A stretch of DNA of 64,000 bases, taken from contig CP054675.1 of NCBI GenBank assembly GCA_013348845.1, positions 2,055,501 through 2,119,500 of the forward strand, written 5' to 3'. Source of the stretch: Candidatus Tepidiaquacella proteinivora (GTDB lineage: Bacteria; Bacteroidota; Ignavibacteria; Tepidaquicellales; Tepidaquicellaceae). Positions 9,537-27,505 of this stretch are shown here, one piece after another. The notes below the pieces were generated by a model, which searched no databases, had not been told where the DNA came from, and saw only the letters and a list, made by a program, of their open reading frames with translations. Within the stretch, counting starts at the first letter, position 1, and each line of letters begins with the position of its first letter. Position numbers and translations under genes: made by a program.

Positions 9537-10148
9537 ATGTTGAATAAGGAAAGAAAAAAAAGATTAGTAAATTCAAAAATTGAAGACAACGATTTAATTG
9601 ATGGAGCTCTAAAAGGTAAAAAGGAATGTTATGAGAAATTAATGAAAAAATACTACAACCTGATTAGTCACCTTATAAGAAAGATGGTTTTTGAAAAAGA
9701 TGAAGTTGATGATCTTACGCAAGAGACATTTATCAAAGCATTTAATTCGTTACATAAATTTGACAAAGAATTCGCATTTTCTACATGGCTTTATAAAATT
9801 GCAACAAATAATTGTATAGATTATATTAGAAAGAAAAAATTATCGACCTTTTCAATTGATAAAGATATAAAGTTAGATGATGATGAAGTTAGATATGAGA
9901 TAGCTGATGATAATTATGTTCCGGATAAGAGAATTATTAAAAATCAAAAAAATAATGTTATTGAAAAAGCGATAGAAAAACTACCCAAAAAATATAGAGA
10001 TATAATTATTTTGAGACATAAATATGAAATGAATTATTATGAAATTTCAAAAGAGTTGAAAATTCCGATAGGAACCGTAAAAGCACATTTGTTCAGAGCA
10101 AGAGAGATGTTAAATAAATATTTAAGAAATAAGATAAAAGATTATTAA
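9537..10148 (+). CDS. ECF-type RNA polymerase sigma factor
   Basis: 203 residues. Sigma region 2 spans about residues 20-95 with DDLTQETFIKAF and the FSTWLYKIATNNCIDYIRKK helix that contacts the -10 element. Sigma region 4 spans about 140-195 with LPKKYRDIIILRH and the helix-turn-helix EISKELKIPIGTVKAHLFRAR. Regions 1 and 3 are absent, as expected for the ECF class. The stop codon overlaps the mutS ATG in the sequence TAATG, so the sigma factor and the mismatch-repair protein should be translated from one message. No anti-sigma gene lies next to it. Confidence 0.9.
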   Translation: MLNKERKKRLVNSKIEDNDLIDGALKGKKECYEKLMKKYYNLISHLIRKMVFEKDEVDDLTQETFIKAFNSLHKFDKEFAFSTWLYKIATNNCIDYIRKKKLSTFSIDKDIKLDDDEVRYEIADDNYVPDKRIIKNQKNNVIEKAIEKLPKKYRDIIILRHKYEMNYYEISKELKIPIGTVKAHLFRAREMLNKYLRNKIKDY

Positions 10149-24524: not shown

Positions 24525-24553
24525 TGAAACTATATCATTTTAATTTCGTCTAA
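24525..24553 (+). promoter_or_regulatory. ECF sigma-type promoter
   Basis: TGAAAC at 24525-24530 and CGTCTAA at 24547-24553 with a 16-base spacer. This is the classic ECF promoter form (compare Bacillus SigM/SigW: TGAAAC-N16-CGTC/CGTA). The operon that follows encodes an ECF sigma factor as its third gene, so self-activation is likely. It is the only such promoter I noticed in the window. Confidence 0.65.
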
Positions 24554-24573
24554 TATATATGAAAAGTTAAAAT

Positions 24574-24587
24574 CCGGACATGTCCGG
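24574..24587. promoter_or_regulatory. 14-base perfect GC-rich palindrome in the ECF operon leader
   Basis: CCGGACATGTCCGG is a perfect inverted repeat in otherwise very AT-rich DNA. It lies about 15-28 bases after the predicted transcription start and just ahead of a Shine-Dalgarno site. It could be an operator for a dimeric repressor, or an RNA hairpin that influences ribosome loading. No U tract follows, so it is not a simple terminator. Confidence 0.55.
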
Positions 24588-24590
24588 GAA

Positions 24591-24595
24591 AGGAG
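24591..24595 (+). promoter_or_regulatory. Strong Shine-Dalgarno site
   Basis: AGGAG inside GAAAGGAG, 6 bases before the ATG at 24602. It is the clearest ribosome-binding site in the window and sits 3 bases after the palindrome. Confidence 0.65.
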
Positions 24596-24601
24596 AAAAA
24601 A

Positions 24602-24973
24602 ATGGATACTTCAGAATTAATTATATCATTAGGCGGTATGATATTTATCTTTGGTTTACCTGCTTTAATTATTTTCTGGAGCATTTCTACCAAACATAGA
24701 GAAAGGATGAGGTTAATTGAAAAAGGTATAACCCCAGAAGAAATAAAAAATTTTTCCAAACAAGAAAAAAACTATAATCCGTATAAAGGATTAAAATATG
24801 GTCTTATTTTTACTTTTTTAGGGGTAGGAATTATAATAGCTAATTTGTTGTATGAGATATTTGAGTTAGAAGATGGATATACATTCGGTTTTGTTATACT
24901 TTTTTTAGGTTTAGCATTTCTTACATATTATTTAATTATTAAAAACAAACTGAAAAATAATAAAGAATTTTAA
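24602..24973 (+). CDS. Small membrane protein, DUF6249-like
   Basis: 123 residues. There is one N-terminal membrane segment (about 7-27), a basic cytoplasmic loop with HRERMRLIEKGITPEEI, and two more membrane segments (about 62-82 and 93-111). The KHRERMRLIEKGI pattern resembles DUF6249 proteins, which often accompany ECF sigma factors. No catalytic residues are evident. It is the first gene of the ECF operon and lies 11 bases before the lipoprotein gene. It could help sense or regulate the membrane state; that is inference. Confidence 0.7.
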   Translation: MDTSELIISLGGMIFIFGLPALIIFWSISTKHRERMRLIEKGITPEEIKNFSKQEKNYNPYKGLKYGLIFTFLGVGIIIANLLYEIFELEDGYTFGFVILFLGLAFLTYYLIIKNKLKNNKEF

Positions 24974-24984
24974 ATTGAAGATCA

Positions 24985-25779
24985 ATGAGAAGATATAAAG
25001 TTTTATCAATCATTATTTTTTTTCTGATTGTTTTCCCTGCCTGCAGTTTAATAAATAAAAAATATCAGAAAACTGTAACTTATGAATATTATATAGATTC
25101 TCATGGGAAAAGATTACTTTGTATAAATAATATAGATGGGAAGTTTAAATTTGTTCAAACTGAGGATTCAATAATAAGAATTAATTATAGAACATCGATC
25201 CGATTTAAAAAGCAGGAATTAAACAAAGAAATAACCCCTCTAAAACTAGGGGTTGATACAGTTGAGGATAAGATAATTTTGAAAGTTGAGGAAAAAATTT
25301 CTGAATATAGTTTTCTAAATTTTGGAAAAGAACCTAAGGATGAATATGATATATTTGTACCGATAAATTTGGCTATTGAAATTAACTCAAATTTTTCCAA
25401 TGTTTATATTGATAATACAGCAAATGATTTCAAAATAAGTTTAATCAATGGGGATGTTATTGCTAATAAACCAAAAGGTAATTATTCTGTTAATATAATT
25501 AATGGAAAATTTAAGATTGATGCTGATTCAGTAAAAAATATAAATGTTAATATAACAAACGGTAAATTTTATTTGCAGAAAGCGTCATTATATTTTGGTG
25601 ATTTTGATTTAAATATTGAGAATGGGAAGATATTAAATTCAGGAATTAGTTTTGATAGTACTATTAAATCTAATAAAGAAACTCTTGTTGCAAAAAGGGG
25701 AAAGTCAGAAAATAAATTGGTAGTAAATATAGTAAATGGTAGAATATATTTAAAAGATAATGTCAAAGTGGAGGATTAA
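24985..25779 (+). CDS. Envelope lipoprotein with beta-strand repeats (DUF4097-like)
   Basis: 264 residues. The signal peptide ends in lipobox FPAC with C20 as the modified cysteine. Residues about 110-255 hold five or six strand-turn repeats built around NG(K/D/R), such as LINGDV, IINGKF, ITNGKF, IENGKI and IVNGRI. This fits a right-handed beta-helix like the DUF4097 putative adhesin domain. It probably sits in the periplasm or outer membrane. Its last 20 bases overlap the sigma factor gene, so the two are translated together. Confidence 0.7.
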   Translation: MRRYKVLSIIIFFLIVFPACSLINKKYQKTVTYEYYIDSHGKRLLCINNIDGKFKFVQTEDSIIRINYRTSIRFKKQELNKEITPLKLGVDTVEDKIILKVEEKISEYSFLNFGKEPKDEYDIFVPINLAIEINSNFSNVYIDNTANDFKISLINGDVIANKPKGNYSVNIINGKFKIDADSVKNINVNITNGKFYLQKASLYFGDFDLNIENGKILNSGISFDSTIKSNKETLVAKRGKSENKLVVNIVNGRIYLKDNVKVED

Positions 25780-26422
25780 ATCAAAAGACAAAAAAACTTC
25801 GTTAAATAATGAAACGAATAATGAATTAATTTCAGAATTTAAAAATTTCGTTTCTCAAAACAAAGATAAATCTTATTCGTTATGTTATAGAATATTGAAA
25901 AGCAGAGAAGATGCTGAAGATGCACTTCAAGAATCATTTTTGAGGTTTTACAAAGCTTTAAAAGAAAAAAAATATAATGGTTCTTCAAAACTTACTACAT
26001 ATTTTTATTCAATTGTCTATAATACAACCGTTGAATATTATAGAAAGAAGAAATTGAAGACTTTTAATATCAAATCTATCGAAATTATGGACGATTATTA
26101 TAAAGAAGGTGATGAATTTAAAAATATTGATGAATATAAAAATAGTATAAATATTTTTAAGAATTGCCCTGATAGAAATATGACTAAAAATGAAATATCG
26201 GAAATCATAAACCAATTTTTGAATTTAATACCTGAACATTATTCTACGATTTTAATTATGAATTATATTAATGAATTAAAAATAAATGAGATATCAAATA
26301 TATTAAATATACGAGTTGGGACTGTGAAAAATAGAATATTTAGAGCAAAGGAAAAATTAAAAAGCATACTATTGAGTATCTTTACTAAAGAAGAACTTAC
26401 TGAATATTTAAATATGAATTAA
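25760..26422 (+). CDS. ECF-type RNA polymerase sigma factor
   Basis: 220 residues. Region 2 is at about 25-100 (SREDAEDALQESFLRFY, LTTYFYSIVYNTTVEYYRKKK) and region 4 at about 145-205 (LIPEHYSTILIMNYINELKINEISNILNIRVGTVKNRIFRAKEKL). The two are joined by an unusually long, charged linker. It starts inside the lipoprotein gene, with a 20-base overlap, and is followed after 9 bases by a small membrane protein. An ECF-type promoter precedes the operon at 24525, so autoregulation is the simplest reading. Confidence 0.88.
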   Translation: MSKWRIKSKDKKTSLNNETNNELISEFKNFVSQNKDKSYSLCYRILKSREDAEDALQESFLRFYKALKEKKYNGSSKLTTYFYSIVYNTTVEYYRKKKLKTFNIKSIEIMDDYYKEGDEFKNIDEYKNSINIFKNCPDRNMTKNEISEIINQFLNLIPEHYSTILIMNYINELKINEISNILNIRVGTVKNRIFRAKEKLKSILLSIFTKEELTEYLNMN

Positions 26423-26431
26423 ATTCAAAAT

Positions 26432-26857
26432 ATGAATGAACAAAATCAAAAGTTGGAAAAAATTATTAAAGAAGGTATAATTAACACTTATAAATTAAAT
26501 GTTAATAAAAATTTTGAGGATGTCTTATTACAGAATATTTATTTACAGGAAAAGTTTATGGCAGAAGATATAAAATCTTTTAAGATTGTAAAAATAATCT
26601 CATTGATATTGTTAGGGGCAATTGTTTTTTCTATAATACTTATATTTGGAGTGAGTATTTCAGCTGAAAATATATATAACAATTCAACAATCGGTGAAAT
26701 TTTGTTTTATGTTTTTAACATAATCGAGTATTTATTTTCCTGGGTTGGTATAAAATCTGTATCAAATCTTATTTTTATCGCGGTTGTTAGTTTTATATTA
26801 ATTTTTTGGATATTCTATTTTGATAAAATTATCTCAAAGAAAAACCACAACTTATAA
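26432..26857 (+). CDS. Two-segment membrane protein, possible anti-sigma factor
   Basis: 141 residues. A cytoplasmic, mainly helical N terminus of about 48 residues is followed by membrane segments at about 50-72 and 111-130. The position directly after an ECF sigma gene and the layout (cytoplasmic helices, then membrane) fit a membrane-bound anti-sigma factor. No ZAS (HxxxCxxC) motif is present and I recognise no family. It ends 24 bases before the end of the convergent rhomboid gene. Confidence 0.55.
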   Translation: MNEQNQKLEKIIKEGIINTYKLNVNKNFEDVLLQNIYLQEKFMAEDIKSFKIVKIISLILLGAIVFSIILIFGVSISAENIYNNSTIGEILFYVFNIIEYLFSWVGIKSVSNLIFIAVVSFILIFWIFYFDKIISKKNHNL

Positions 26858-26881: not shown

Positions 26882-27505
26882 TTATTTAAAATGATTTAAA
26901 AATAACTTAAAAGACCCATCAATAATTAAAAAAGTGGAAACTATACCCCCGAGTGCGCCTCCTAAATGTGCCTCGTGTCCAATATTTCCTAAATTACGCT
27001 TCATTCCGTAAAGTGAGATACCAACATATAAAAAAGCGAAAATATATGCAGGCATTGGTATAAAAAAGAATCCTAACATTGCTTTAGGATAAAATATTAT
27101 GAAAGAAAAAATTATTCCAGATACTGCACCGGATGCTCCTATAGCAACATATTGAGGATTTTTGAAATTAAACATTACAGTCAAAATTGAACCTGAAATT
27201 AAACTTATTAAATATATTGCAGCAAAATATAAACTACCATTGATTTCTCCAAACTTATTTATGAAATTATTTTCAAGTATGTTACCAAATGTATATAGTG
27301 CAAACATATTAAAGAACAAGTGAAAGAAATCAGCGTGTAAAAAAGCAGAAGTAACAATTTGATGGATTCTTCTTTCATACACTATTCGGTAGGGCCATTC
27401 TGCAAACTCGTAGAAATATTTATCCTTATTTCTGAGCGCTATTAAGGATATGACTATATTAACGATTATCAAAACGATAGTTACAGGAGCTTTTACTTCA
27501 ATCAT
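26882..27505 (-). CDS. Rhomboid family intramembrane serine protease
   Basis: 207 residues with six predicted membrane segments. The catalytic pair is S125 in GASG and H180 in HEAHLGG. The oxyanion/HxxxN region is HADFFHLFFN with H57, H62 and N66. Rhomboids cut membrane proteins within or next to the bilayer, for example single-pass type I segments. It is the last gene of a minus-strand run and starts 3 bases after the dnaG stop. Its length fits a bacterial rhomboid without extra domains. Confidence 0.93.
   Translation of the reverse strand: MIEVKAPVTIVLIIVNIVISLIALRNKDKYFYEFAEWPYRIVYERRIHQIVTSAFLHADFFHLFFNMFALYTFGNILENNFINKFGEINGSLYFAAIYLISLISGSILTVMFNFKNPQYVAIGASGAVSGIIFSFIIFYPKAMLGFFFIPMPAYIFAFLYVGISLYGMKRNLGNIGHEAHLGGALGGIVSTFLIIDGSFKLFLNHFK

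Follow-up and report, generated by a model that had tools for sequence, protein, structure and literature searches.

A putative self-regulated ECF sigma factor operon of envelope genes in Candidatus Tepidiaquacella proteinivora

In the genome of Candidatus Tepidiaquacella proteinivora, the gene for an ECF sigma factor stands third in a group of four genes, behind two genes for envelope proteins, and a promoter of the ECF type lies upstream of the first. This layout raises the question of whether the operon's own sigma factor reads the promoter and, if it does, what would hold such a loop in check. The window, meaning the whole stretch of DNA that was analyzed, comprises 64 kb (bases 2055501–2119500) of the host genome, which is a single contig of 2.40 Mb. 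Positions given below are those of the window unless stated otherwise.

Layout and conservation of the operon

The promoter string and the four-gene arrangement of the original prediction were all found in place. The features are as follows:

24525–24553 (+): ECF promoter, with a −35 element TGAAAC (24525–24530), a 16-base spacer, and a −10 element CGTC (24547–24550) followed by TAA
24574–24587 (+): GC-rich palindrome CCGGACATGTCCGG in the leader, 5′ of the Shine-Dalgarno sequence, where a small hairpin is possible
24590–24595 (+): Shine-Dalgarno sequence AAGGAG of gene 1
24602–24973 (+): gene 1, DUF6249 small membrane protein, 123 aa (PF19762, E = 2e-19)
24985–25779 (+): gene 2, lipoprotein with a predicted Toastrack (DUF4097-type) β-solenoid, 264 aa, lipobox cysteine at residue 20
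25760–26422 (+): gene 3, SigW-like ECF sigma factor, 220 aa (Sigma70_r2 and Sigma70_r4_2)
26432–26857 (+): gene 4, probable membrane anti-sigma factor without a zinc finger, 141 aa (based on hhalign and the predicted structure)

The promoter is located 72 bases downstream of a lysine-2,3-aminomutase-like gene (Pfam LAM_C, radical SAM), and the ORF coordinates of genes 2 and 3 overlap by 20 bases. A rhomboid protease gene lies downstream at 26882–27505 (−), convergent to the operon. Since a rhomboid gene is found close to the operon in only 12 of the 37 loci described below and is absent in the second family, and given its convergent orientation, it is not an essential part of the operon. The rhomboid had been considered as the protease acting on gene 4, and it may have a link to anti-sigma cleavage. 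The window contains a further ECF-like sigma gene at 9537–10148 (+), which is directly followed by a mutS-like gene and has no adjacent anti-sigma gene (locus L158). Elsewhere in the same genome, locus L003 carries tandem 88-aa ORFs (454–720 and 781–1047) that are GIY-YIG nuclease-like and identical in their first 70 residues.

To place the operon among its relatives, we used a comparison set of 37 operons, one from the host genome and 36 from other genomes, covering two families of one order. Almost every genome of the window's family and of the second family carries the sigma and DUF6249 genes together, and the gene order (DUF6249, lipoprotein, sigma factor, small membrane protein) is identical in all complete loci. 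The operon has other neighbors in the second family, and its retention there indicates that the four genes form a unit.

The position of the sigma gene had been regarded as unusual on two counts. Its third place is a fixed trait across the taxonomic order, whereas a start within the preceding lipoprotein gene is largely particular to the genus: in three genomes of the genus, the sigma gene starts at −20, −32, and −11 bases relative to the end of the lipoprotein gene, while in the other genomes the two genes are mostly separated by 0 to about 117 bases and overlap in one case, by 4 bases. A leader hairpin occurs at a similar position in approximately 15 relatives, with different stem sequences, and is absent in others. 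The idea that it acts as an RNA switch was set aside on these grounds, the hairpin being limited to some relatives and its stems being unrelated.

Envelope proteins and the probable anti-sigma factor

Gene 1 is the sole DUF6249 copy in the genome and scores 69.9 bits against a Pfam cut-off of 33 bits. The pairing of an ECF gene with a neighboring DUF6249 gene recurs in other families of the class, where an anti-sigma gene with the zinc motif H-x3-C-x2-C follows the ECF gene. The DUF6249 gene is divergent from the pair formed by the ECF sigma and zinc-finger anti-sigma genes at L107, L109, L110, L153, and L154, and lies upstream of such a pair, in the same direction, at L155; no adjacent Toastrack gene was seen at any of these loci. 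The divergent arrangements show that the association of DUF6249 with ECF genes extends well past the present operon.

A Pfam search gave no convincing match for the protein encoded by gene 2 in the window. Among its 35 orthologues, nine match PF13349 (Toastrack, DUF4097; best E = 4.5e-15). The structural model is a β-solenoid (pLDDT 87.6), and its best match in the PDB is 4qrk (E = 1e-10), one of two structures that a survey of PSP systems gives for the Toastrack fold (PMC11237479). The model, together with the orthologue matches, indicates that gene 2 has the Toastrack (DUF4097) fold. The protein has a lipobox, FPAC, and the cysteine that follows the signal peptide, Cys20, is invariant in 35 aligned orthologues, as expected for a bacterial lipoprotein. 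In the survey, Toastrack proteins were predicted to be intracellular (PMC11237479); the lipobox with its invariant cysteine argues for an extracytoplasmic Toastrack domain in the present case. Of the earlier description of gene 2 as a β-repeat lipoprotein, the lipoprotein assignment holds, and the Toastrack fold had been missed.

Gene 4 has no Pfam family match and no Pfam anti-sigma match, and Foldseek as well as sequence and profile searches of the PDB gave no anti-sigma match. The structural model comprises a helix at residues 2–20, a helix that starts at residue 28 and continues into the membrane, and a second long, hydrophobic helix at residues 110–139, which corresponds to a topology of two cytoplasmic helices, a transmembrane (TM) segment, a loop, and another TM segment. 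When the profile of gene 4 was aligned with a profile of six zinc-finger anti-sigma factors using hhalign, the probability was 89.5% (E = 2e-6) over 127 columns, whereas control alignments with DUF6249 gave 0.3% and 2.4%. None of 100 column shuffles within short segments, which preserve hydropathy, reached the observed score (maximum 27.2 vs 43.7). The alignment begins after the zinc finger, and the membrane half contributes most of the signal; taken by itself, the cytoplasmic part aligns weakly (16.0 vs a shuffle maximum of 12.7, probability 2.8%). Because of this weak alignment, the identity of the sigma-binding half is deduced from the homology of the membrane half, the position of the gene, and its length.

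These data connect gene 4 with both major descriptions of anti-sigma factors. It is homologous to class I proteins (ASDI/zf-HC2), and neither gene 4 nor its 35 relatives contain the H-x3-C-x2-C motif, which many but not all class I anti-sigma factors carry. The zf-HC2/ZAS anti-sigma factors at L107, L109, L110, L153, L154, and L155 occupy the same gene slot and share the membrane half (TM, loop, TM, and basic tail) with gene 4 but, unlike gene 4, keep the motif. According to the model, gene 4 also has a cytoplasmic domain with two helices, as is typical of class II anti-sigma factors, where this domain spans about 50 aa; class II proteins wrap the sigma factor, helix 1 lying on σ4 and helix 2 on σ2. 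In CnrY, a class II example, a short cytoplasmic part consists of two helices (PMC7406223). One further genome (L108) carries a DUF6249 gene, a sigma gene, and a gene for a gene-4-like protein, the last two overlapping by four bases. This protein aligns to zinc-finger anti-sigma factors, with the finger missing, and is not significant when searched with the gene 4 profile alone.

We conclude that gene 4 most likely encodes an anti-sigma factor that has lost its zinc-binding bundle and that, judged by homology, the operon has the co-encoded anti-sigma factor expected of an ECF system. The original prediction had described the last gene as encoding a membrane protein; this is correct as far as it goes, and the anti-sigma role suggested by homology to zinc-finger anti-sigma factors had been overlooked. 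A different reading is that gene 4 encodes an accessory membrane protein, an effector like DUF6249, and that the sigma factor is controlled only by its own level or by another protein. While the missing zinc finger, the lack of Pfam anti-sigma and PDB fold matches, and the weak cytoplasmic alignment would fit this reading, we consider it rather unlikely in view of the homology of gene 4 to bona fide zinc-finger anti-sigma factors in the same gene slot, its CnrY-like two-helix cytoplasmic part, and its frequent translational coupling to the sigma gene, with ATGA-type overlaps of the two genes in nine relatives. If gene 4 is an anti-sigma factor, as we think most likely, the loop has a brake.

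The promoter and its likely reader

The promoter has the AAC in the −35 element (TGAAAC) and the CGT in the −10 element (CGTC) that are expected of ECF promoters, the latter being replaced by AGTC in some relatives. TGAAAC-N14..18-CGTC has a single match in the 64-kb window, where 0.12 matches are expected from shuffled sequences. Pattern scans of the complete host genome, with the reversed pattern as control, revealed no excess: the short motif had 8 matches versus 10 for the control, a version with one mismatch had 19 versus 24, and a tight version had 3 versus 2. Given these genome-wide counts without enrichment, the string by itself proves little, and the regulon that such a scan had been proposed to define was not visible with this motif in the host genome. 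Apart from the operon, all near-matches in this genome lie within open frames of at least 50 aa. One of them, L152, ends 156 bases 5′ of a gene for a secreted protein and overlaps only a 98-aa ORF; we regard it as a weak candidate for a further target.

Comparison with relatives gave a different picture. All 37 orthologous operons carry TG[AC]AAC-N16/17-[AC]GTC[AT] at most 300 bases from the DUF6249 start, whereas dinucleotide shuffles predict approximately 0.0005 matches per locus, or 0.02 loci in total. It is thus through position and conservation that the promoter rises above chance, and the observation of an ECF-type promoter sequence ahead of the operon is confirmed. The consensus is TG[AC]AACCTT-N13/14-[AC]GTC[AT]TAA; in the window's genus, the CTT that follows TGAAAC in most relatives is missing and both core boxes are kept. 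Where additional micropeptide genes precede gene 1, the promoter is located upstream of these as well.

The motif is largely specific for the operon. Across 28 genomes from the window's family, searches with a strict version yielded 22 matches, of which 18 correspond to the operon (1 control match); for eight second-family genomes, there were 11 matches, seven of them at the operon (no control matches). Other strict matches lie ahead of genes for a secreted β-lactamase-like protein (L130) and a TolC-like protein (L142). In a pair of genomes that belong to one genus (L150 and L151), such a match precedes an outer-membrane protein gene and is accompanied by a second, tandem site. These functional names were assigned by reading the sequences. 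Tandem pairs of ECF promoters ahead of one gene were observed at L088, L150, and L151. The sole other strict match in four second-family genomes (L162, L163, L171, and L172) precedes a small ORF, which encodes a peptide of approximately 36 aa (e.g., MMTFIKIKTLEKLTTGMIILNMAVLAVLCYNYYFKF) with one hydrophobic or TM stretch and lies shortly past base 1500 when read in the orientation of the match. In addition, ten genomes of the window's family have one or two unannotated genes between the promoter and DUF6249, so that a micropeptide gene comes first in the operon (L073, L074 with two, L081, L082, L084, L085, L091, L093, L094, and L095). The predicted products are single-TM peptides of 19–27 aa that end in K-S-[KR] plus a few residues (e.g., METAIIIAVTFLITFLLALAKSKY). 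In the host genome itself, we saw none of these unlinked targets or micropeptides. The unlinked targets in relatives are few; as predicted from their sequences, they are envelope genes or tiny membrane peptides, and all point to the envelope.

The sigma factor consists of σ2 and σ4 domains only (Sigma70_r2, residues 31–98, E = 5e-13; Sigma70_r4_2, residues 149–200, E = 4e-12; Pfam), as is characteristic of ECF sigma factors. The closest solved sigma structure is that of SigW (5wuq, E = 4e-23); the score for the SigW equivalog NF007223 stays far below its cut-off (118.8 vs 209 bits). In the crystal structure of SigW with its −35 element, residues T168, K170, T171, R172, and R175 contact the element TGAAACCTTT, and the −35 consensus of SigW is TGAAAC(C)TTT (PMC6713349). 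The recognition helix of the window's sigma factor, GTVKNRIFRA, keeps four of these five contact residues (T168, K170, R172, and R175), with N in place of T171. The pattern G-T-[VI]-K-N-R-[IL]-F-R-A is present in 36 of the 37 sigma factors, the remaining one having S instead of N.

Sigma factor, promoter, and operon are inherited together. Taken together, the conserved promoter, the operon-specific motif, and the conserved recognition helix support the positive loop that had been postulated for this locus. On this comparative evidence, positive autoregulation, with the operon's own sigma factor reading the promoter, appears strongly supported, and this sigma factor very probably switches the operon promoter on. 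One could also envisage a genuine promoter that another sigma factor of the cell reads, while the sigma factor of the operon serves other genes. The genome does contain two more ECF-like sigma genes (contig positions 1599269 and 2065172), and one-off likeness among ECF promoters is common; still, we judge this quite unlikely, because in each genome the motif is found at the operon and almost nowhere else, because it tracks the operon through two families with different neighbors, and because the sigma factor keeps SigW-type contact residues for exactly a TGAAAC −35 element. That TGAAAC/CGTC is a chance string and a housekeeping promoter drives the operon is extremely improbable, since this idea, which draws on the shortness of the motif and on a host-genome total no higher than the reversed-pattern control, is refuted by the same-place footprint in 37 of 37 loci. 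An additional housekeeping promoter for the operon is possible.

Proposed mechanism and relation to known systems

We propose, with good though not full confidence, that the operon is a self-contained, positively autoregulated envelope-response module gated by an anti-sigma factor. In this model, the ECF sigma factor encoded by gene 3 would, with RNA polymerase, recognize TGAAAC-N16-CGTC ahead of the whole operon. In unstressed cells, gene 4, a predicted inner-membrane protein with two TM segments and a short, two-helix cytoplasmic N-terminus, would keep the sigma factor inactive. Disturbance of the envelope would inactivate the anti-sigma factor and free the sigma factor, which would then transcribe the operon and so generate more sigma factor, more anti-sigma factor (acting as brake and reset), and more of the DUF6249 protein and the Toastrack lipoprotein. 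The latter two would be the output and probable modulators of the signal. Use of the promoter by this sigma factor in the cell, binding by gene 4, the nature of the signal, and the roles of the DUF6249 protein and the lipoprotein are all inferred.

The σE factor of Escherichia coli is an envelope-linked ECF sigma factor that is positively autoregulated and has its anti-sigma factor encoded in the same operon. As proposed here, the present operon would resemble rpoE-rseA-rseB-rseC in these three respects (PMC8103513); it differs in that the E. coli operon has the sigma gene first, other accessory proteins, and a broad regulon, of which nearly nothing is visible here. With Bacillus subtilis SigW/RsiW, it shares an ECF sigma factor that is nearest to SigW among solved structures, an identical −35 consensus with the contact residues T168, K170, R172, and R175 (PMC6713349), and a (here probable) membrane anti-sigma factor downstream. 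Unlike in SigW/RsiW, T171 is replaced by N, the −10 element is CGTC, the sigma gene comes third behind two envelope genes, gene 4 lacks the zinc-finger bundle, and no large regulon is visible. The modeled cytoplasmic part of gene 4, with its two helices before the TM segment, is reminiscent of CnrH/CnrY; however, a PDB profile search detected no sequence relation to CnrY, the detectable relation being to zinc-finger class I proteins. Finally, gene 2 connects the operon through its predicted fold to the Toastrack and PSP/Lia neighborhoods, where Toastrack has been mentioned alongside a sigma factor of the same operon (PMC11237479), with the difference that gene 2 places the domain behind a lipobox. 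DUF6249 is not mentioned in that survey.

Promoters of the AAC/CGT type, co-transcribed anti-sigma factors, and positive autoregulation are usual features of ECF systems (PMC8103513); hence, the kind of system is known. Its variant features are the sigma gene behind its targets, the zinc-less anti-sigma factor, the combination of a Toastrack lipoprotein with DUF6249, and a regulon with almost no other targets. In the papers searched for DUF6249, for DUF4097 with ECF, and for the promoter motif, neither the operon nor the pairing of DUF6249 with a sigma factor is described, although a name for the ECF group may exist. Going further, we tentatively suggest, at somewhat less than even chances, that this is a private sigma module, whose regulon would hardly exceed its own operon and one or two tiny membrane peptides, with a zinc-finger-less anti-sigma factor, with the Toastrack lipoprotein at the surface and DUF6249 both dedicated to feedback, and with the sigma gene behind its targets as a fixed trait.

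The findings give two uncharacterized families, DUF6249 and the lipoprotein-type Toastrack proteins, a defined regulator and a testable setting. They also provide a case of an anti-sigma factor that seems to have shed its zinc-binding bundle while its place was kept, and they draw attention to membrane micropeptides that lack annotation and are preceded by a promoter of this type. With hardly any targets outside its own operon, such a sigma factor would be a simple natural switch for the study of feedback.
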